Assembly (NCBI GenBank): GCA_016209905.1
Contig: JACQVG010000210.1
Coordinates: 1 to 33,584, forward strand
Direction of reading: 5' to 3'
From: Gemmatimonadota bacterium
GTDB taxonomy: Bacteria; Gemmatimonadota; Gemmatimonadetes; Gemmatimonadales; JACORV01
DNA length: 33,584 nucleotides
Shown: positions 10,368 to 32,119 of the stretch, in pieces
Layout: every line of letters starts with the position of its first letter
How positions within the stretch are numbered: the first letter of the stretch is position 1
The notes under the pieces: generated by a model
Told to the model about the DNA's origin: nothing
Databases searched by the model: none
What the model saw: only the letters and a program-made list of their open reading frames with translations
Made by a program: the position numbers and the translations under genes

Positions 10368-11975
10368 TTGGCGGTATCCCGTCGAGAATTCCTCAAGCGT
10401 AGTTCGACCGCACTGGCGACCATCGGTGTCGTCACGAGTCGCGGTCACGCCGGTGCCTCCCCCGCATCACTCCCGCTGCCCCAAGCCGATGGTTCGATTC
10501 GAGAGATGGCGCTCCTGGCGCTCGACGCCGCGCGCAGCGCCGGCGCGAGCTACGCGGATGTCCGCGTGAGCGGCGTTCGCACCCAGTCGGTCGAGACGCG
10601 GGAGAACCGCGTCACGGATCTTTCGGACGGCGAGAGCTTCGGCTTCGGGATTCGCGTGCTGGTGGGTGGAGCGTGGGGCTTCGCGGCCAGTCGCGACCTG
10701 TCGCGCCCGGAGGTCCAGCGGGTCGCGCGCGCGGCGGCCCAGCAGGCCCGCGCCAACCGCCGCGCCCTGGAGCGCCCCATCGTGCTGGCCCCCGCCGACC
10801 CCGTTCCCGACGGCCGGTGGAGCAGCCCGGCGCGGATCGATCCGTTCGAGGTGCCGGTCGAGCAGAAGGTGGATCTGCTGCTTCGCGCCAACGCGGAGGC
10901 GCTGCGCGTGCGGGGCGCCCGCTTCGTCAGCTCGTCCATGGACTTCGTCAGGGACGAGCGAACCTACGCCAACACCGACGGAACCTTCACGGTCCAGACG
11001 GTGGTGCGGTCGGACCCCGCCATGACCGTGACGGCCGTGGCGCCCGACGCCTCCGACTTCCAGAGCCGCCAGTCCGACGACGTGCAGCCGATGGGCATCG
11101 GCTACGAGCACGTCGAGCAGAGCGACTTCATCGGGAACGCGCCACGGTGGGCGGAGGAAGCCGTCCAGAAGCTGAGCGCCCGGTCCGTGGACGCGGGCAG
11201 CTACGATCTGGTGCTGCACCCCACGCACCTGTGGCTGACCATCCACGAGTCCATCGGCCACCCGACCGAGCTCGACCGCGCGCTCGGCTACGAGGCCAAC
11301 TACGCCGGCACGAGCTTCCTCGCCCCGCCGCGCGACATCATCAACCGCTTCCGGTTCGGCTCCGAGATCATGAGTGTCCAGGCCGACCGGCGGCAGCCCG
11401 GCTCGCTCTCGGCGATCGGCTGGGACGACGACGGCGTACCGGCCGACGAGTGGCTCCTGATCCGGAACGGGATCGTCACGGACTACCAGACCACCCGCGA
11501 CCAGGTCGCCTGGATCTCTGATCTGACCGGTGTCCGGCGCTCCCACGGCTGCTCCTACGCGCAGACGTGGGCGGATGTCCAGTTCCAGCGGATGCCCAAC
11601 GTCTCGCTCCTGCCGGGGGAGCAGGATCTCTCGGCGGAGGACCTGATCGCCGCCACCGATCGCGGCATCTACATCCAGGGCGCCGGCGCCTACTCCATCG
11701 ATCACCAGCGCTACAACTTTCAATTCGGCGGCCAGGTCTTCCACGAGATCCACAACGGGCGGCTCGGCGCAATACTGAAGGACGTGACCTACCAGGCGCG
11801 CACGCCGGACTTCTGGAACGCCATGGACATGATCGGCGGGCGGCGCTCCTACCGGCTCGGCGGATCCTTCACCGACGGGAAAGGGCAGCCCTCGCAGTCC
11901 AACGCCGTCAGCCACGGCTGTCCGCCGGCGCGGTTCCGGAACGTCACCGTCATCAACACGGGCCGCGGTCGGTGA
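10368..11975 (+). CDS. tldD: TldD-family metallopeptidase-like protein with Tat signal peptide
   Basis: SRREFLKRSSTALATIGVVTS (twin-arginine), HESIGHPTELDRALGYEANYAGTSF (HExxGH), GGSFTDGKGQPSQSNAVSHGCPPARFRNVTV. TTG start. Confidence 0.9.
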   Translation: MAVSRREFLKRSSTALATIGVVTSRGHAGASPASLPLPQADGSIREMALLALDAARSAGASYADVRVSGVRTQSVETRENRVTDLSDGESFGFGIRVLVGGAWGFAASRDLSRPEVQRVARAAAQQARANRRALERPIVLAPADPVPDGRWSSPARIDPFEVPVEQKVDLLLRANAEALRVRGARFVSSSMDFVRDERTYANTDGTFTVQTVVRSDPAMTVTAVAPDASDFQSRQSDDVQPMGIGYEHVEQSDFIGNAPRWAEEAVQKLSARSVDAGSYDLVLHPTHLWLTIHESIGHPTELDRALGYEANYAGTSFLAPPRDIINRFRFGSEIMSVQADRRQPGSLSAIGWDDDGVPADEWLLIRNGIVTDYQTTRDQVAWISDLTGVRRSHGCSYAQTWADVQFQRMPNVSLLPGEQDLSAEDLIAATDRGIYIQGAGAYSIDHQRYNFQFGGQVFHEIHNGRLGAILKDVTYQARTPDFWNAMDMIGGRRSYRLGGSFTDGKGQPSQSNAVSHGCPPARFRNVTVINTGRGR

Positions 11976-13351
11976 GCGCGATCCTGAGCCGCGACGAGGC
12001 GAAGGCGATCACCGACAAGGTGCTCGGCTTCTCGCGCGCCGACGCCTGCCGGGTCAGCATCCTCGGCCGGGCTGCTTTCGACGAGCGGACGCTGGCGGGA
12101 CTGCATGCCAACACGCGTTTCGCCGGAAACGCGATCACCACCAGCGGCGAGTCGGTCAACGTCAGGGTCCGGGTCCGCTCGGCGTTCGGCCGGCGGAGCG
12201 CAACGCTGTCGACCAATATCCTGAGCGACGAAGGGCTGCGGCGGTCGGTCGAGACCTCGGAGCGACTCGCCCGGCTCGCTCCCGAGGACCCCGAGGCGAT
12301 GCCGGAACTCGAGCCGCAGGCGTACCGCGAGGTGCCGGGATTCTTCGAGCGCACGGCGGGGCTGGACGCGGAGCGGCGGGCCGCCGCCGTGATGCCGGTG
12401 CTTCAAGCGGCCCGGCGCGCGAGCCTCCAGTCCGCCGGGTTCCTCACGCTCAACGCGGGCTGCACCGCCGTGGCGAACTCGCGGGGACTGTTCGGCTATC
12501 ACCGCTCCACCGCCTTCTCGTACACGACGACCGTGCGGACCCCGGACGGGACGGGATCCGGCTGGGCCGGGGCGGCGCACAACGACTGGAGCCGCGCGCG
12601 GCCGCAGGAGCTTGCCCACACGGCGATCGCCAAAGCCCGCCTGTCCCAGAACCCGGTCGCCATCGAGCCGGGTCCCTATACGGTGGTGCTCGAGGCCACC
12701 GCCGTGGCCAACCTCCTCCGGCTGCTCTTGGTCTTCGCGATGGGGGCGCGGCCGGCCGACGAAGGCCGCTCCTTCTTCTCGAAGCGGGGCGGGGGGAACA
12801 AGATCGGCGAGCGCGTCGTGGACGAGCGGGTCACCCTCGTTTCCGATCCCTGGGACCCGGATCTGCTGGCCTCTCCTTTCGACGGCGAGGGGCAGCCGAG
12901 CGAGCGTGTCGCGTGGATCGAGAACGGCGTGCTGCGCAACCTCATGTACGATCGGTACTGGGCCGAGCAGCGCCAGACGCGGCCGACGGGCTTTCCCGCC
13001 GCCGTGAAGATGACCGGCGGCACGGCGATGCTCGACGACCTGATCCGCTCCACCGAGCGCGGCATTCTGGTGACCCGCTTCTGGTACATCCGCGGGCTCG
13101 ACCCGCGCACGGTTCTTTACACCGGTCTCACCCGGGACGGCACGTTCCTGATCGAGAACGGCCGAATCGCGCGCCCGGTGAAGAACCTGCGTTTCAACGA
13201 GAGCCCGGTCGCGATGCTCAACAACCTGGATTTGCTCGGCCAGCCGATGCGCGTGTCGGGCTCGGAATCCGGCGACGTCGGGGCCGCCGTGGTGGTGCCG
13301 CCGATCAAGACGCGGGAGTTCCACTTCCAGTCGGTGTCCGACGCCGTTTGA
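11972..13351 (+). CDS. TldE/PmbA-family protein, no obvious signal peptide
   Basis: 459 aa from GTG overlapping the tldD stop (GTGA); ITTSGESVNVRVRVRSAFGRR…NSRGLFGYHRSTAFSYT…FFSKRGGGNKIGERVVDERVTLVSDPWDPDL. Confidence 0.88.
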   Translation: MSAILSRDEAKAITDKVLGFSRADACRVSILGRAAFDERTLAGLHANTRFAGNAITTSGESVNVRVRVRSAFGRRSATLSTNILSDEGLRRSVETSERLARLAPEDPEAMPELEPQAYREVPGFFERTAGLDAERRAAAVMPVLQAARRASLQSAGFLTLNAGCTAVANSRGLFGYHRSTAFSYTTTVRTPDGTGSGWAGAAHNDWSRARPQELAHTAIAKARLSQNPVAIEPGPYTVVLEATAVANLLRLLLVFAMGARPADEGRSFFSKRGGGNKIGERVVDERVTLVSDPWDPDLLASPFDGEGQPSERVAWIENGVLRNLMYDRYWAEQRQTRPTGFPAAVKMTGGTAMLDDLIRSTERGILVTRFWYIRGLDPRTVLYTGLTRDGTFLIENGRIARPVKNLRFNESPVAMLNNLDLLGQPMRVSGSESGDVGAAVVVPPIKTREFHFQSVSDAV

Positions 13352-13516: not shown

Positions 13517-13551
13517 GCGCAGCTTTGGGCGTCCGCTCCTATATTCCCGGC

Positions 13552-15333
13552 GTGATCCTGCACGACGAGCGCCGCGAGCTCGACCTGAGCGTCGCGCCGA
13601 CCGGTGCCCGCCTCGGCCGCGATCCCGCTCTCGACCTGGCGTTCCCCGAAGAGGACAGCGTCGTGAGCGCGGTCCACGCCCGCGTGTGGCGTGAGGCCGA
13701 CGGCACCTGGTGGCTCCAAGACCTCGGCAGCACCAACGGCACCTGGCTCAACGGTCGCCGGATCACCGGCGCCGAGCGGCTGAGGTCCGGCGACCGCTTC
13801 ACGCTCGGGCAACGCGGGCCCGCGCTGCGGGCCACGCTGCCCGGGGAGCTCGCCCGCACCCAGCCCGAGCGCGGCATCGACACCTCGCAGCCCCTGCTCC
13901 GGCTCCGGCGCGTCAAAGGCGGCGAGGACCTCACCGGCGCGGGCTCGGAGATCGTCATCGGTCGCGCGGCCACGTGCACCATTCCCCTTCGCACCGTGGT
14001 GGACACGGTCGTCTCCAAGCGGCACGCCGTCGTGGAGATCGACGAGAACGGCGCAGCGACGCTCACGGACGTGGGCAGCAAGAACGGCACCTTCCTCAAC
14101 GGCACGCAGATCCACGGCCGCGCCATGCTGCGCGTTGGCGATCGGATCATGCTCGGCTGGCACGGCCCCCTGCTGGAGGTGCGCATCCTCGGGCCGGCGA
14201 TGCTGCCGGAGGGCGAGGGCGCGGCGTACCACCCCGAGCTCCAGCCCGCGAAGACCTTCGTCGGAATGGTCCAGCACGCGCAGTCGCAGGCTCGCGGCGC
14301 GACGGGCGTGCGCACCGGCGTCTTCGTTCGCGCCATGGCGCGCCAGATGGCCCGCGAGTCGTCCGTCGCGTTTCGGGTCGCCGTGCTCGGTTCCATGGTC
14401 CTGCTCCTCGGAGCCATCGCCTACGTGTATCGCTCGGCCGAGCGACAGACGGCGGCGGCGGCGGCCAGGCTCGCCACGACCGAGCGCGCCCTGACGGAGC
14501 AGGTGCGCAGCGCCACCCTGGCCCAGCAGCGCGCGCAGGAGGAGCTCACGCGGCTTCAGCGCGACTTGGCCGCCGCCCGGCGTGCCAGCGTGAGCCGCGC
14601 TGTGCTCGACAGCCTGGAGCGCCGGCTGCGCGAGGCGGAAGCGCGTGCGGCGAGCGGGACCGCGCCGGGCGCGGCGGCGGCCGCGGATTTCACCCGAGTG
14701 GCGGCAGACAACCAGCCTGCCGTGGGGTTGGTGATCGTACGGTTCCCGGACGATTCGATCATGGGAAGCGGCTTCGTCGTGACGCCTTCGGGCTACTTCA
14801 TCACCAACCGGCACGTGGTCCAGGACGCCGGCCGCGGCAGCGGCGCCGGTTCGGCGGGGCTGCGGTCGATCGAGATCATCATGGCCGACACCCGAACGCC
14901 GCTACCGGCGGATCTGGTCGCCGTCAGCACCGTCCCCGACCAGGATCTCGCGATCCTCAAGATCCGCGGCTACCGGGGCGAGGTGGTTCGGTCCATTGAC
15001 TGGCAGGGCCGGGGCATCCGCCAGGGAGCGCCCGCCGCCCTGATCGGCTTTCCAGGCGGGACGCAACTCGCCATCGATCGCAACGGCTACGTCCGCACCA
15101 CCATGTTCGCCGGGATCATCTCTAAAACGACCAGCTCCGGCAGCGAGTGGGTGCAGTTCGGCGGCACCACCTTCAGCGGCGCGTCCGGCAGCCCGATCTT
15201 CAACGCCGACGGCGAAGTCATCGCCGTGCACTTCGGAGGCCTGCGCGAGGGCCCGGGGCTCGGCTTCTCGGTGCCCGTCGACCGCGTCCGACGCTGGCTG
15301 CCGGCGGAAGCCAGGGCCGAACTCGGCCTCTAG
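13552..15333 (+). CDS. Tandem FHA-domain, transmembrane, coiled-coil, trypsin-like serine protease
   Basis: FHA motifs ARLGRDPALDLAFPEEDSVVSAVHARV…LGSTNGTWLNG and EIVIGRAATCTIPL…VVSKRHAVV…DVGSKNGTFLNG; TM VAFRVAVLGSMVLLLGAIAYVY; protease GSGFVVTPSGYFITNRHVV…DLAILKI…GASGSPIFNADGEVIAVHFGG. Start 13552 (GTG) preferred over 13525 (TTG). Confidence 0.9.
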   Translation: MILHDERRELDLSVAPTGARLGRDPALDLAFPEEDSVVSAVHARVWREADGTWWLQDLGSTNGTWLNGRRITGAERLRSGDRFTLGQRGPALRATLPGELARTQPERGIDTSQPLLRLRRVKGGEDLTGAGSEIVIGRAATCTIPLRTVVDTVVSKRHAVVEIDENGAATLTDVGSKNGTFLNGTQIHGRAMLRVGDRIMLGWHGPLLEVRILGPAMLPEGEGAAYHPELQPAKTFVGMVQHAQSQARGATGVRTGVFVRAMARQMARESSVAFRVAVLGSMVLLLGAIAYVYRSAERQTAAAAARLATTERALTEQVRSATLAQQRAQEELTRLQRDLAAARRASVSRAVLDSLERRLREAEARAASGTAPGAAAAADFTRVAADNQPAVGLVIVRFPDDSIMGSGFVVTPSGYFITNRHVVQDAGRGSGAGSAGLRSIEIIMADTRTPLPADLVAVSTVPDQDLAILKIRGYRGEVVRSIDWQGRGIRQGAPAALIGFPGGTQLAIDRNGYVRTTMFAGIISKTTSSGSEWVQFGGTTFSGASGSPIFNADGEVIAVHFGGLREGPGLGFSVPVDRVRRWLPAEARAELGL

Positions 15334-17550: not shown

Positions 17551-17579
17551 TTGTAAGCGCTGCCGCGCCGCCGTAGCTT
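17551..17579 (+). promoter_or_regulatory. Putative promoter of PHP gene
   Basis: TTGTAA-N17-TAGCTT. Confidence 0.45.
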
Positions 17580-25547: not shown

Positions 25548-25576
25548 TTGCCGTCGGGGGTAGACGCGCGTAGCTT
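25548..25576 (+). promoter_or_regulatory. Putative promoter of the three-gene secreted cluster
   Basis: TTGCCG-N17-TAGCTT. Confidence 0.5.
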
Positions 25577-25626
25577 GGCGGTACGGGGTCGAGTGCCCCG
25601 AAGTGTCGCGCCCCTGGAGGCATCCC

Positions 25627-26916
25627 ATGAAAGCCACCGGTTTCTCCGCTGCGGCGCTAGTGCTGGCCGCCGCGCTTCCCCTTCCGACCCCGCTCACCGC
25701 CCAGCAGACCGACGAGGCCACGGTCCCCGTCGTCGGGGAGGCGGTGATCCGCGGCGACAGCCTGCTCGCCGCGAGCCTCGCCGCCAAGACGGCCGGCTAC
25801 CGCGAGGCGCTCCGCATCCAGCTCGGCCGGCTGCTCGACTCCCTGGGCGCCATCGAGGCGTTGCCGCGGCTCCAGAGCCGCGCCCGCTCCTACGTCCGCC
25901 GCGAGGAAGTCGAGAACGAGGAGCGCGAAGGCAACCTGATGCGCGTCTCGCTGCGCCTGGTGCTCGACGTCGCCAGGCTCAAGACCGACCTCGAGGCGCT
26001 TGGCTATGAGATCCGCACCATCGGCACCGACCTACCCTCGGTGATGGTGGTGGTGGACGAGTACTTCGTGAACAACCCCCGCTCCCTCTCCGCCCAGGCC
26101 CAGGCGCAGGCGGGGCCGCCGAGTGCCATGACGGGGCGGCAGCAGGCCGCGGCGGACACCTCCAGCGATGAGTTCACGCGGCCCGAGTTCCGGGACCGCA
26201 GCGCGCGCGCCTCGGCGACGGAGATCGAGGAGGCGCTGAACCGGAACCAGTTCACCGTCCTCGACCAGAGCACGGTGGCGCAGCTCAGGGCCGACATCCC
26301 CGGGTTCACCGCCGATCTGATCAAGCAGGGCGACCAGCTCGCCGAGTTCGCCCGGCGGGCCAACGAGCGCTTCCACGCGCAGCTCGTCCTGGTCGGAGCG
26401 ACCACCGTCATCAACTCGGGACGCGACGCCAGCGGTCTCGAATCCCGGCGCTCGATGATGATGTACCGCGCCATCGACGCCTCGTCCGGCCGGCTCCTGG
26501 CGAGCGGCACGGTCGAGAGCGCGGCGCAGGCCTCCGACCCGCTCGTGGCGCGTCAGCGCGCCGCGGTGCGGGTGTCGCAGGTCGCCGCCGAGCGGCTCAT
26601 CCCGCAGCTCACGCGCGCGGCGCGTGACCGCGCCTCGCGGGGCGAGCTCTACATCATCGAGCTGGTCGGATTCTCGGGCTTCGCGCAGGCGCGGTCCTTC
26701 CTGCAGGCCGTGCAGGGTGTCGAAGGAGTGACCTCGGCGCGCCAGACCCAGCTCGACGTGTCGAACCGGCGGATCCGGATCGAGGTGATGTTCATGCGCC
26801 CCCGCGACGAACTGATGGGCGAGATTTTCGACGCGGCGCAGCAGATCCCCGCGTTCGGAACGCTGGACATCCGGAACCAGCGGGGCAACGAAATCGTATT
26901 TGCAGTCCGCCAGTAG
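25627..26916 (+). CDS. Secreted hypothetical protein with FlgT-N-like region
   Basis: 429 aa; SD ggagg; signal peptide MKATGFSAAALVLAAALPLPTPLTAQ; GEAVIRGDSLLAASLAAKTAGYREALRIQLGRLLDSLG… reminiscent of FlgT N-terminal domain. Confidence 0.75.
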   Translation: MKATGFSAAALVLAAALPLPTPLTAQQTDEATVPVVGEAVIRGDSLLAASLAAKTAGYREALRIQLGRLLDSLGAIEALPRLQSRARSYVRREEVENEEREGNLMRVSLRLVLDVARLKTDLEALGYEIRTIGTDLPSVMVVVDEYFVNNPRSLSAQAQAQAGPPSAMTGRQQAAADTSSDEFTRPEFRDRSARASATEIEEALNRNQFTVLDQSTVAQLRADIPGFTADLIKQGDQLAEFARRANERFHAQLVLVGATTVINSGRDASGLESRRSMMMYRAIDASSGRLLASGTVESAAQASDPLVARQRAAVRVSQVAAERLIPQLTRAARDRASRGELYIIELVGFSGFAQARSFLQAVQGVEGVTSARQTQLDVSNRRIRIEVMFMRPRDELMGEIFDAAQQIPAFGTLDIRNQRGNEIVFAVRQ

Positions 26917-26934
26917 GCGGGAAAGGAGTCGCTG

Positions 26935-27678
26935 ATGGCAAGCGCGATTCGTGGCGCGGCGCTCGGCGTCGCGCTGGTGGGCGGGCTCGGGTTGCTCGCG
27001 CGCCCGGGGGAGGCGCAGATCGGACGCCTGCGCCGTACCGTCGAGCGGGTGAGCTCGGGGCCCTCGTACGAGATCCAAATGCTGCTCTACCGCATCGACA
27101 CCACTCGGACGCTCTTCGACAAGGCGACGTTCCTCCTCTTCAAGGCCTCCTACGTGATGGAGTCGGTCGTGGCCACGCAGGAGCGTCGCGCGGAGATCCG
27201 GCGCGAGCTCGCCTCGGTCGACTCCCTGGAGCAGCGCGGCGGCGAGAACCGGGTGCAGCTCAACGCGCAGGACCACGCCACCCGGCTCGAGCAGGCGACC
27301 GCCGAGCGGCGCTACGAGCAGACGCGGCTCTCCGACGCCCAGTCCAGGACCGTCACCAACGTCGGTTTCAACTCCGCGCTCGCCCTGCTCATGGACGCCT
27401 TCGCGCTCGACGAGGCGCGGCGCCTGGTCGGGGAGGCGCAGGCGGCGGCGCAGAACATCGCCAACGATCCGGCCCAGCTGGTCCACTTCAATCGGCTGCG
27501 CAGGGCGGCGACCGAGGACCTCCCGGCGATCGTGAACGCCATCCCCCAGCAGCAGCGGCTCGGCTCGGCGATCCGGAACGCGGCCCTCCAGGCGCGGGCC
27601 GCCAACCAGGCGGTGCAGGTGTCGGAGGCCACGGCGCGCAGCGATCCGCCGCGGCCGATTGACCTGAGCGCCATCTAG
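26935..27678 (+). CDS. Secreted hypothetical protein, helical
   Basis: 247 aa; signal peptide MASAIRGAALGVALVGGLGLLARPGEAQ; Gln/Ala/Arg-rich helical body; SD ggaaaggag. Confidence 0.75.
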   Translation: MASAIRGAALGVALVGGLGLLARPGEAQIGRLRRTVERVSSGPSYEIQMLLYRIDTTRTLFDKATFLLFKASYVMESVVATQERRAEIRRELASVDSLEQRGGENRVQLNAQDHATRLEQATAERRYEQTRLSDAQSRTVTNVGFNSALALLMDAFALDEARRLVGEAQAAAQNIANDPAQLVHFNRLRRAATEDLPAIVNAIPQQQRLGSAIRNAALQARAANQAVQVSEATARSDPPRPIDLSAI

Positions 27679-27699
27679 CGGCGAGCGACCGGAACCCGC

Positions 27700-29814
27700 C
27701 TGAGCCCGCTACTCGCGATCGTCTTAGCGGCGCGCCTCGCCGCGCAGGAGCCGGCCGACCGCGTGCGCTGCCAGCTCCTCTCCTTCCGCGTTCTCCAGGC
27801 GGCGAAGGGCGGCCTGACCGACCCCCGTTTCCTCCAGGTTTTCAACGAGGCATCGCAGCGCGGTGCGCTCCAAGCCGCGCTCGGCGCGGTCCCCGCGCTT
27901 GAGATGCTCCCCTTGGATGCCGATACCGGGCTCGTCGCCCGCGGCGAGCTGTCGCAGCGCATCGCGGCCCGCGCCTTCGTCACCCGGGCCGACATCGAGC
28001 GCGTGGACAAGGCGCTCACCACCGAGCACCTCGTCAGCACCACCGTGATGCTCGAGTTCTTCAATCCCGCGACAGGCGAGGTCTACCATATCCAGGAGCT
28101 GACGGGCAGCACCAACATCCGCAAGGACGCCGGCGCCGCTCTCACGCCGCCCGAGGCGCTCGGCGCTTTCACCGCGACGCTGGCCGGCACGGTGCGGGAA
28201 CTGGTCTCACGCCTGCGCGACCGCTATCGCCCCGGCGTCTCGGCGCGCGTGGTGCAGCAGCTGGCCGACGGGCGGCTCGCGCTGGCCGCCGGGCGCGCGG
28301 CGGGCCTGCGCGAGGGAGCGCGGCTGGAGGTCCGCGACTCCTCCGCTCAGACCGTCGGGATCGCCCGCGTCGAGCAGGTGCAGCGCAACTTCGCCGTCAC
28401 CACGAGGCCCCTCGCCGATAATCCGGCCCGCAATTGGGTCGGGCTCACGGCCTCGAGCCCCGGCCTGAATCGCACCGCGGGGGGCGACGGGTTCTCGCAC
28501 ATGGTGGCCGGCGTCGAGCAGCGGAGCGAATTGGTCCAGCGCGAGTACGTGCTTCCGCAGGCGACGCTGATCTACTGGCTGCACGAGAGCCTCGCCGAAG
28601 CGGCGCCGGGCCTGAACTTCCTCCCGCCCGTGGCGGCGGGAGGGCTGGCCGGCGAGCAGGAGCGGCTCGAGCTGGCGACGGGCCGCGCCGGCGACATCGC
28701 GGGCCAGCGCATCATCCCCGACTTCGTGGTGCGCGCGGCCATCTCGCGCGCCGACGCCCTGTCCGACATCGGCCCCGACGGCGCGACGTACTACATCCTC
28801 AAGGTCGGCGTGGACCTGAGCTTCTACGACGTCCGCAACGGACAGATTTTCTACGCGACCTATGTCGAGGGCACGCAGCAGGAACGGGTTCGGGCGGGAG
28901 AGCGGGAGCTCGACCTCTCGGTGAGCTACCGCAACCTGCTGCAGCGCTCGATGGCCGAAATCGGTCGCCGCGTCGCGGCGGAATACGCCCCCGTCATCGC
29001 CGAGGGGACGGTGCGGGAGGTACGTGCGGACGGAAGCGTGGGGCTGGCCGTGACCGGGAGCGGCACGCTGCCGGTAGGAGGCATCGTCACGCTGTGGACC
29101 GACGGCGAGGAGGTGCGGGACCCGGGCGGCCGGCAGTCGCTGGGGCGGGTGGAGGAGCCGGCGGCGCGCCTCAGAATCGTTCGCCACTCCGGCACGACCG
29201 CGGACGCGCTGCCGATCGGTGCGCCCGTGCGGCCGCTCGCCGGCGGGCGGTTTCACGCCCCCGCGACCGCGGGCGAGAGCGGGACGGCGCGGCGGCTCGT
29301 GCAGGTCCAGCGGGTGGAGGTGCGCGGCGAGATCCAGGTGCAGCCCGCGCTCCTGACCGAGATCGTGCAGACCGCCATCGCCAGCTCGCGTGCCCTCGCC
29401 GTCCTGGAATCCCGCGAGGTGCTCGGCGAGCTCGCGGCGCTCAGGGACCGCGAGTTCGGGGGAGGAGCCTTCAGCAGCCGGGGCGCCGCGCAACTGCTGT
29501 CGGCGGAGAACGCCGAGCCGGCGCTCTACGCTCGCGTGGTGGCGCGTTTCCTCCCGCCGAGCCCCGCCCAGGAGGAGGGCAGGCCGGCCCAGGCGTACGA
29601 GGCCCGCATGGGGATCGCGCTCGTGAGCGCGTCGGATACGACCCAGCAGGTCGGCAGCGCGGCGCAGGTGCTCACCAGCCGCTTCCCGCTGCCGCGGGGG
29701 CGTCGCGTGGTGGTCGTCGGCCTCTCGCCGCAGGACGTGGCGAAGATCTACGCCCAGATGAGCCGACAGCTCGCCGCCACGGTGGTGCAGGCGCTGGCGC
29801 AGGGCGCGCGGTAG
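27700..29814 (+). CDS. Large secreted protein with CsgG/FlgT-C-like segments; probable CTG start
   Basis: Frame open from the upstream TAG (27676); CTG at 27700 gives MSPLLAIVLAARLAAQEPADRVRC signal peptide. ADGRLALAAGRAAGLREGARLEVRD (FlgT-C-like); KVGVDLSFYDVRNGQIFYATYVEGTQQERV (CsgG-like). The track start (GTG 27763) would lose the signal peptide. Confidence 0.7.
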   Translation: MSPLLAIVLAARLAAQEPADRVRCQLLSFRVLQAAKGGLTDPRFLQVFNEASQRGALQAALGAVPALEMLPLDADTGLVARGELSQRIAARAFVTRADIERVDKALTTEHLVSTTVMLEFFNPATGEVYHIQELTGSTNIRKDAGAALTPPEALGAFTATLAGTVRELVSRLRDRYRPGVSARVVQQLADGRLALAAGRAAGLREGARLEVRDSSAQTVGIARVEQVQRNFAVTTRPLADNPARNWVGLTASSPGLNRTAGGDGFSHMVAGVEQRSELVQREYVLPQATLIYWLHESLAEAAPGLNFLPPVAAGGLAGEQERLELATGRAGDIAGQRIIPDFVVRAAISRADALSDIGPDGATYYILKVGVDLSFYDVRNGQIFYATYVEGTQQERVRAGERELDLSVSYRNLLQRSMAEIGRRVAAEYAPVIAEGTVREVRADGSVGLAVTGSGTLPVGGIVTLWTDGEEVRDPGGRQSLGRVEEPAARLRIVRHSGTTADALPIGAPVRPLAGGRFHAPATAGESGTARRLVQVQRVEVRGEIQVQPALLTEIVQTAIASSRALAVLESREVLGELAALRDREFGGGAFSSRGAAQLLSAENAEPALYARVVARFLPPSPAQEEGRPAQAYEARMGIALVSASDTTQQVGSAAQVLTSRFPLPRGRRVVVVGLSPQDVAKIYAQMSRQLAATVVQALAQGAR

Positions 29815-29837: not shown

Positions 29838-30002
29838 ATGCGCTCCGCCCTCGCCCTGAGCCTGGTCTTACTGCTGACGAGCGTCTAGCCCGTCGTAAGC
29901 GCCGCGGCCGAGCACGACTACATGATCCAGTACTCGCCGTACGACAGTCTGGCGCCGCGCGACTACGCCTTCATGCTGGAGCAGGTGGGAATGACCCAGT
30001 GA
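29838..30002 (+). pseudogene. Small secreted ORF interrupted by in-frame TAG
   Basis: MRSALALSLVLLLTSV*PVVSAAAEHDYMIQYSPYDSLAPRDYAFMLEQVGMTQ*; a complete signal peptide is recovered only if the TAG at 29886-29888 is read through. Confidence 0.5.
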
Positions 30003-30010
30003 TCAGCGTT

Positions 30011-30072
30011 GCAGAGTTGCAGTGGTGGGCAGAGTTGCAGAGTTGCAGTGGTGGGAAGTGGGAAGTGAGCAG
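30011..30072. repeat. Tandem short repeats (gcagagtt)n / gcagtggtgg / gggaagt
   Basis: gcagagttgcagtggtgggcagagttgcagagttgcagtggtgggaagtgggaagtgagcaggaaa. Confidence 0.85.
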
Positions 30073-30471
30073 GAAAGCACGAAGCCCCGCGGGCCGGAGC
30101 GGCTCAAGACGCTCGGCCAGGCGCTGGAAGGGTGCTCCGGTGTCGTCTTCGCCTACCTGTTCGGCGGGGCGGTGGGTGGACGCATCCGGCCCCTGAGCGA
30201 CTTGGATGTAGCCGTTTACCTTGATGAAACCGTGGCCCCGATGGATGGGCGGCTCGAGGCCATGGGTGTGGCCACCGCGCACCTCGGGACCGACGAGGTG
30301 GACCTGGTCGTCCTCAACACGGCGCCGACGGCCCTGGTCGGGCGGATCCTGCGTGAGCATCTCGGGGACTTCACCGGCTTCAGGCCCGCCGTGTTGGGGT
30401 GGATATGGCTCACCCATCCCGCAGCAAGCCGGGCCGCGCCACGCGCTCCTCCGGGTCGGCGTCTAAGCTGA
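30022..30471 (+). CDS. MNT-type nucleotidyltransferase domain protein, probably truncated/degenerate (start uncertain)
   Basis: GVVFAYLFGGAVGGRIRPLSDLDVAVYLDE is the NTP_transf_2/MNT core (GG-x…-SDLDVAV); C-terminus short and divergent, N-terminus made of repeat sequence. Confidence 0.65.
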   Translation: MVGRVAELQWWEVGSEQESTKPRGPERLKTLGQALEGCSGVVFAYLFGGAVGGRIRPLSDLDVAVYLDETVAPMDGRLEAMGVATAHLGTDEVDLVVLNTAPTALVGRILREHLGDFTGFRPAVLGWIWLTHPAASRAAPRAPPGRRLS

Positions 30472-30745
30472 CCGGAGGACTCTCCCTGGCCCCCGTCGCA
30501 ACCGCGCGTGAGCCACGAGCGCATGACTCGGCTGCCCGGCCCTCGCCGTCGGATGTGGGGTCTCGTGGGGGCGGCCTCGAGCGGCGGCTCATCGCTCTCG
30601 AGACCGAGATTCGCCTCTCCAAGTAGCGGATCAGGCGGGATCTCCTGGAGCGGGACAGCGGCTGGCGCAACCGGATGATGACCGGAATGTTCCTCCTCGC
30701 CAGGATGGTGGCCGAGTTGGCATCGCCGCAGCCTGGGGGGTGCAT

Positions 30746-32119
30746 ATGTCGCTCCCGACGTTCGTGGAAGAGGTGACGCGCTGGCGAGCGGAGGTCGTCC
30801 GGGCGAACGCTTTCGAATGCGAGCCCATCCCGTTCGACGCGTCGCGGGAGTGGCTCTTCGAGGACGGCATCCTGAAACACCGGACGGGAGGGTTCTTCTC
30901 GGTGGCGGGGCTCGCGGCGCAGGCGAACCACCCCGGGCTGGATGGCCGCGAGCAGGTCATCCTCCTCCAGCCCAGGCCGGCCATCAACGGTTTCCTCGTT
31001 CGCGGCGTCCCCGGCGGCGCGGAGCTGCTGTTCCAGGGGCGGGTGGAGCCAGGCAATGTCCACGCGATGCAATTGGCCCCCACGGTCCAGTCCACCGAGA
31101 CCAACTACCTTCAGATCCACGGGGGAGCGGCTACCCCCTTCATCGAATGGTTCACCGAGCCAGGATCGGCCCGGGTGCTGGTGGACCAGCTGCAATCCGA
31201 GGAGGGGACGCGCTACCAGGGGAAGTACAACCGCCACGTGGTGTTGGAACTCCCTCCGGACGCTGAGCTCGTCATTCCTTCCCAGTTCCGTTGGTATGGC
31301 ATCGCGGCCTTGCGGGCCTTCGTGGCCGAAAGCAACCTGCTCAACACCGACGCTCGATCGGTGATTGCGTGCCTCGACTGGGCCGTCCTGGCGGACGAGG
31401 ACGGTCCATTCGCTGGCAACGCCCGCGGCAGCTTCGGGGCGGCGCTCCGCGATTCGTACCTAGCGCGGGACGACAAGGGCGAGTGCCCCCTCGTCGAGCT
31501 GGTCCGGTGGCTCACGCGGCTCCGCGTCCGCTGCGCGCTGAGGACGCGGGTCCTGGGCATCCCCGACCTCCGGAACTGGGTCGTGGACAAGGACGCGATC
31601 CGGGAGAAGCGGAAGGACGTCGGATTCGCCGTGCGCCAGTTCCGCGTGGTCGCTCTGGGACGGGAGGTGACCTCGTGGGACCAGCCCCTCGTCCACAGCA
31701 CGAGCGCGGGCCGCGTAACGCTGGCGTGCCAGAGGCGGGGAGGGACGCTTCGATTCCTGCTGAAGGCCAGTCACGAGATTGGCTTCCTCGAGGCCGTGCA
31801 GCTTTCGAGCTCGTTGTGCGCGCCGCCCGGCCAGGTTGGGCCTCAGGACGACCCGGTGGAGGCGGAGCTGTCGCGGCGCATCGACGGGAACGAGGGCGCC
31901 ATCGTCCGCGCGCGGTGCCGCCAGTCGGAGGAGGGCGGACGCTTCTACCGGGACGAAAACGAATACGAGGTCGTCGAGCTGGACGAGACCGTCGCCCTGC
32001 CGGAATCGGAGTGCTATCGGTGGGCGACGCTCGGGCAAGTCAAAGAACTGATTCGGACCCCAGGACTGATCTCCATTGAGCTGCGCGCGGCGCTCACGCT
32101 GTTGTTGGCGCACCTCTAG
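30746..32119 (+). CDS. NDP-hexose 2,3-dehydratase family protein (EvaA-like)
   Basis: LFQGRVEPGNVHAMQLAPTVQSTETNYLQIHGGAATPFIEWF and GGRFYRDENEYEVVELDE…YRWATLGQVKELIRTP match the family signatures (…K.EPGN…QL.PTVQAT.SNY…HGG / YRWMTLGQI). Alternative GTG 30740. Confidence 0.88.
   Translation: MSLPTFVEEVTRWRAEVVRANAFECEPIPFDASREWLFEDGILKHRTGGFFSVAGLAAQANHPGLDGREQVILLQPRPAINGFLVRGVPGGAELLFQGRVEPGNVHAMQLAPTVQSTETNYLQIHGGAATPFIEWFTEPGSARVLVDQLQSEEGTRYQGKYNRHVVLELPPDAELVIPSQFRWYGIAALRAFVAESNLLNTDARSVIACLDWAVLADEDGPFAGNARGSFGAALRDSYLARDDKGECPLVELVRWLTRLRVRCALRTRVLGIPDLRNWVVDKDAIREKRKDVGFAVRQFRVVALGREVTSWDQPLVHSTSAGRVTLACQRRGGTLRFLLKASHEIGFLEAVQLSSSLCAPPGQVGPQDDPVEAELSRRIDGNEGAIVRARCRQSEEGGRFYRDENEYEVVELDETVALPESECYRWATLGQVKELIRTPGLISIELRAALTLLLAHL

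Follow-up and report, generated by a model that had tools for sequence, protein, structure and literature searches.

A three-gene operon of secreted FlgT/CsgG-type proteins in a Gemmatimonadota genus in which FliG was not found

The locus described here is, with a rough probability of 0.45, a short operon encoding a periplasmic envelope scaffold assembled from FlgT/CsgG-type modules and serving a structure other than the flagellum. It lies in the window, i.e., the whole stretch of 33,584 nucleotides that was analysed, which is contig C197 of a 2.17-Mb Gemmatimonadota genome in 225 contigs. Judged by its sequences, this is a variant of known FlgT/CsgG-type proteins that is restricted to one lineage, and the operon probably rearranges known parts in an unusual way rather than constituting a machine of a new kind. 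The same three genes were recovered from one other species of the genus (G001). The features are as follows:

25548..25576, + strand: promoter-like element TTGCCG-N17-TAGCTT, ~50 bp upstream of the start of gene 1, kept ahead of the G001 operon
25627..26916, + strand: gene 1, 429 aa; a signal peptide followed by FlgT_N-like, CsgG-like (middle), and ferredoxin-like (C-terminal) domains; 79% identical orthologue
25720..25959, + strand: FlgT_N-like segment of gene 1, residues 32-111 (Pfam PF16548, below cut-off)
26083..26592, + strand: CsgG-like middle of gene 1, ~residues 153-322 (hhalign to the CsgG + FlgT_C profile)
26644..26910, + strand: gene 1 C-terminal beta-alpha-beta-beta-alpha-beta (ferredoxin/ACT-like) domain, residues 340-428 (AlphaFold2, Foldseek)
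26935..27678, + strand: gene 2, 247 aa; secreted, helix-rich by inspection; 76% identical orthologue
27700..29814, + strand: gene 3, 704 aa; secreted, putative CTG start; two units of the CsgG-like + FlgT_C-like type, then a third domain at the C-terminus; 82% identical orthologue
27751..28239, + strand: CsgG-like domain 1, residues 18-180 (hhalign against domain 2, E 1.4e-4)
28240..28449, + strand: FlgT_C-like beta module 1, residues 181-250 (hhalign E 1.4e-4; score 32.1, shuffles at most 19.9)
28483..28983, + strand: CsgG-like domain 2, residues 262-428; the best phylum profile matches start here
28993..29229, + strand: FlgT_C-like beta module 2, residues 432-510 (hhalign 92%, E 7.5e-7; top Foldseek matches FlgT)
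29275..29811, + strand: gene 3 C-terminal domain, residues 526-704, CsgG-like by eye only

The original prediction of three consecutive same-strand genes with signal peptides holds well: all three ORFs have a coding-type third-position GC of 0.92-0.94, their signal peptides end near A-x-AQ by inspection, and the set recurs in G001. The short gaps of 18-21 bp that it described survive in part. Genes 1 and 2 are separated by 18 bp, and the 21 bp between genes 2 and 3 obtain only if gene 3 starts at CTG 27700. We infer this start because it is needed to keep the signal peptide; the first in-frame ATG/GTG/TTG is GTG 27763, and starting there would delete it. The signal peptide is also kept in the G001 orthologue, where the gap to the ATG is ~97 bp, and hence the second gap is not conserved. 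No lipobox is present in the products of genes 1, 2, or 3; the weak AAGC of the gene 1 orthologue is not common to the window gene 1. Just 3' of gene 3, at 29840-29999, a short ORF with a signal-peptide-like start is stopped after 16 codons, with readable sequence beyond. It is possibly a decayed gene, and no counterpart follows gene 3 in G001.

The promoter-like element proposed ahead of gene 1 was missed by a strict sigma-70 scan, yet it recurs upstream of the G001 operon as TTGC-G-N17-TAGCTT, with identical spacing and near-identical hexamers, and is among the best-kept stretches when the two upstream regions are compared. A second TTG-N3-N17-TAGCTT occurs at 17551-17579, 21 bp before ATG 17601 of a PHP-domain ORF, and GTAGCTT is found twice in the window against 0.62 occurrences expected. 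As far as sequence goes, the two elements suggest a promoter form of this lineage.

In G001, the gene order is the same on a 4.4-kb contig; the 3' end of gene 3 falls on a different one. The dN/dS values between the two species (0.22, 0.32, and 0.15 for genes 1, 2, and 3) indicate purifying selection, and thus the operon is not a chance set of ORFs; since the flanks differ between the two genomes, the three genes form a conserved unit. No further orthologues turned up when 60 relatives and up to 395 phylum genomes were searched with sequences and profiles, although the wide phylum searches score few candidates per genome, such that very remote relatives could escape. The expected conservation of the three-gene order in relatives is therefore borne out in one sister species, with nothing comparable detected across the ~400 phylum genomes sampled. 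The gene 2 profile is clear in only 2 of 101 genomes, the host and G001, and its one match in G002 (E 1e-3) lies mostly over the signal-peptide region. Gene 3 found no relatives among genome contigs, nor did genes 1 and 3 in tblastn against plasmids, and the weak phylum-wide matches of the gene 1 profile looked like signal-peptide or unrelated similarity and were set aside.

At normal thresholds, Pfam and NCBIfam assign none of the three proteins to a family. Pfam CsgG has no match above its cut-off in the gene products; Pfam FlgT_C reaches E 0.12 for module 1 of gene 3, short of its cut-off, and does not match module 2. PDB sequence searches with the orthologue profiles likewise returned nothing meaningful. 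The best non-self match of the gene 3 profile in the phylum is a 335-aa protein, over residues 370-496, a stretch also matched by a relative of this protein from a second genome; both are of the CsgG + FlgT_C type by sequence. A reference profile of such proteins was made from seven loci and two from relatives, a family in which Pfam recognises CsgG at 5e-28 and FlgT_C at 3.5e-9, and whose members retrieve TsaP and CsgG from the PDB. Unit 2 of gene 3 (residues 262-518) matches this profile at 93%, E 3.5e-7, with a score of 53.6 as against a maximum of 25.9 in 100 column shuffles, 16.2 for the reversed profile, and a best score of 22.0 among 12 unrelated window proteins. Unit 1 (residues 18-262) matches it at E 8e-4, scoring 31.9 against a 100-shuffle maximum of 25.7, and the two units match each other at E 6.6e-6, in keeping with an internal duplication. 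These profile matches and the mutual similarity establish gene 3 as two CsgG-like + FlgT_C-like units. The FlgT_C-like and CsgG-like segments originally recognised in gene 3, which, like the other protein segments quoted at the time, are present exactly, are thus confirmed by hhalign, the unit in fact occurring twice in tandem. The last 180 residues also look CsgG-like by eye; their profile comparison did not rise above the null, and that assignment was dropped.

The anticipated FlgT/CsgG-like fold also emerged from structure prediction, in the form of a partial model of unit 2. The AlphaFold2 model of residues 262-518 was made from seven homologous rows covering only the second half of this region, because the first half of CsgG-like domain 2 did not align in register with CsgG proteins in MAFFT; the first half of that domain is not folded confidently. 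In most of the FlgT_C-like module the pLDDT is ~80-91; the CsgG-like strands reach 50-75, and the mean of the model is 60. Foldseek searches of the PDB place the LPHT ring chain 8z5n (E 1.3e-5) and FlgT 3w1e (E 1.9e-5) at the top for this model; CsgG entries follow among related folds, at E 0.02 and above. As the alignment rows are themselves CsgG + FlgT_C proteins, the model supports the fold assignment without being independent of it.

The domain matches of gene 1 are weaker. Its supposed FlgT_N-like segment stays below the Pfam cut-off (PF16548; E 0.44 for the whole protein, 0.014 for the segment), as does that of the orthologue (E 0.052); in favour of the assignment, the match falls in the same register in both orthologues, is found in none of nine shuffles or the reversed gene 1 sequence, and concerns one of the very few families expected beforehand beside FlgT_C and CsgG modules. 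The middle of gene 1 scores 28.5 in hhalign against a shuffle maximum of 17.5, at a probability of only 13%, and is thus a weaker instance of the FlgT_M/CsgG-type domain than either unit of gene 3. The C-terminal ~90 residues reach a pLDDT of ~70-83 in a single-sequence AlphaFold2 model, the rest of which is unusable, and retrieve ferredoxin-like folds in Foldseek. Gene 2 matches no Pfam or NCBIfam family, and FlgO/FlgP (LPP20-type) was not recognised in it.

A separate locus in a genome of the family (L040, G006:C202, positions 1-2519) encodes two adjoining secreted-looking proteins, one with FlgT_N at the Pfam cut-off (28.9 bits). By eye it has the same FlgT_N/middle/C-terminal layout as gene 1; hhalign did not exceed shuffles, and it was not accepted as a relative. 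None of the 298 phylum genomes sampled gave a FlgT_N match at E 0.001 or lower, in searches whose controls gave no match either, and for this reason the contig of L040 may be foreign.

How might these parts work together? The CsgG/FlgT-M-type alpha/beta domains would pack side by side into a periplasmic arc or ring. By analogy with FlgT in the Vibrio H-ring, the FlgT_C-like beta modules could bind a peptidoglycan-associated partner or an outer-membrane ring protein, and the related module of the pilus protein TsaP offers a second analogy for such partner binding. Gene 1 would supply the FlgT_N-type part, such that genes 1 and 3 together would present the FlgT N, M, and C types over two polypeptides, gene 2 would act as a helical partner, and the operon would serve to brace, or to position, some envelope structure that is not the flagellum. 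The known precedent is FlgT, a periplasmic protein that builds the Vibrio H-ring with the lipoproteins FlgO and FlgP; the ring is lost without FlgT (PMC7990780, PMC6375700), and the locus numbers of flgT, flgO, and flgP are consecutive in several tabulated species, e.g., VF_1883-1885 (PMC6375700). Like FlgT, the operon products are secreted and have M-type (CsgG/TolB-N-like) and C-type beta domains with a possible N-type domain, CsgG and TolB-N being placed in the same Pfam clan (PMC3173608); as with flgT/flgO/flgP, the genes form a compact group of three. In contrast to FlgT, N, M, and C do not share one polypeptide, the possible N-type lying on gene 1 and the C-type on gene 3, and the M-C unit is duplicated in gene 3. 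Unlike the FlgO/FlgP partners, gene 2 has neither an LPP20-type match nor a lipobox.

The other departure from FlgT concerns the flagellum. FliG has no match in the host genome (89.5% complete), in G001 (98%), or in five further genomes of the family (G002-G006), while it is present in other genomes of the order. This supports the proposed use of these modules outside flagella. A bolder form of the scaffold reading, in which a FlgT-type periplasmic ring, its modules split over two genes, its M-C part duplicated, and a new helical partner added, braces an envelope machine in non-flagellated Gemmatimonadota, strikes us as unlikely in all its particulars. Were the products to form a ring, FlgT scaffolds would count as an envelope module of general use and not as an invention of the flagellum, with a bearing on the origin of the Vibrio H-ring. 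Short of that, the operon presents FlgT/CsgG modules duplicated and split in a lineage where FliG was not found, a rearrangement of the kind that Pfam-threshold homology searches overlook.

A scaffold does not follow from the domains alone, because CsgG + FlgT_C proteins occur in other Gemmatimonadota too. Single proteins of this type, with no clear lipobox, are seen at several loci of the phylum (L020, L021, L071, L073, and L081-L087). They share the domain order of gene 3 units 1 and 2 (e.g., L081-L087), from which gene 3 differs in its tandem units, third domain, remote sequence (~20-26% identity for unit 2), and shortened hairpin regions. The three products may simply be lineage-specific periplasmic FlgT/CsgG-type proteins without a joint machine, their gene order reflecting ordinary co-transcription in two close species. 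Their confinement to two species of one genus, the remoteness of the domain similarity, and the differing neighbours beyond the three genes all agree with this view, which we nevertheless think improbable, as the three genes stay together under purifying selection while their flanks differ.

A further alternative, to which we give a rather low probability, is an accessory ring of a secretin machine, i.e., of a type IV pilus or type II secretion system, comparable to TsaP, which places its FlgT_C-like module at the PilQ secretin. TsaP binds peptidoglycan and occurs together with the pilus secretin (PMC7545093). The host genome has one secretin gene, and the FlgT_C-like reference family matches TsaP, which acts at an envelope ring. 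On the other side, G002 and G003 have a secretin and the operon was not detected in them, the operon products have no LysM match, and no pilus genes adjoin the operon.

Export or anchoring through an outer-membrane pore of the CsgG/HfaB kind, in which the gene 3 product would form a channel that exports the gene 2 product or holds an adhesin, is distinctly improbable. CsgG is a ring-shaped pore, and the operon does encode CsgG-like alpha/beta domains with a small secreted protein between them. Opposed to this are the lack of a lipobox in every product, the lack of any matched curli-type gene in the window, and the loops of unit 2 corresponding to the two membrane hairpins of CsgG, which are shortened in alignments with genuine CsgG proteins, in a part for which the model is not reliable. 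CsgG-type secretion by this operon is thus unlikely, and the original placement of the operon as an outer-membrane module is not supported, a soluble, periplasmic FlgT-like part being the better fit. Least probable of all are regulators of peptidoglycan synthases like LpoB, which share the LpoB/TolB-N/CsgG-type fold and are weakly matched by the reference CsgG proteins in Pfam, as LpoB is an outer-membrane lipoprotein not known to carry a FlgT_C module, and the gene products themselves have no LpoB match.

We favour the periplasmic scaffold because non-lipidated products with shortened hairpin regions fit FlgT better than a CsgG pore, and because the theme common to FlgT, CsgG, and TsaP is that of ring or collar parts at envelope machines. 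The neighbours of the operon in the window are ordinary housekeeping genes (rho, TldD-like proteases, a NuoG-like molybdopterin protein, and an amino-acid permease). Directly downstream of the TldD/PmbA-type protease pair (10368-13348), the stretch at 13525-15330 encodes a single protein with two FHA-domain segments and a trypsin-like protease domain. At 30022-32116, a short Polbeta-type nucleotidyltransferase ORF precedes an NDP-hexose 2,3-dehydratase; such a deoxysugar enzyme is unusual beside housekeeping genes.
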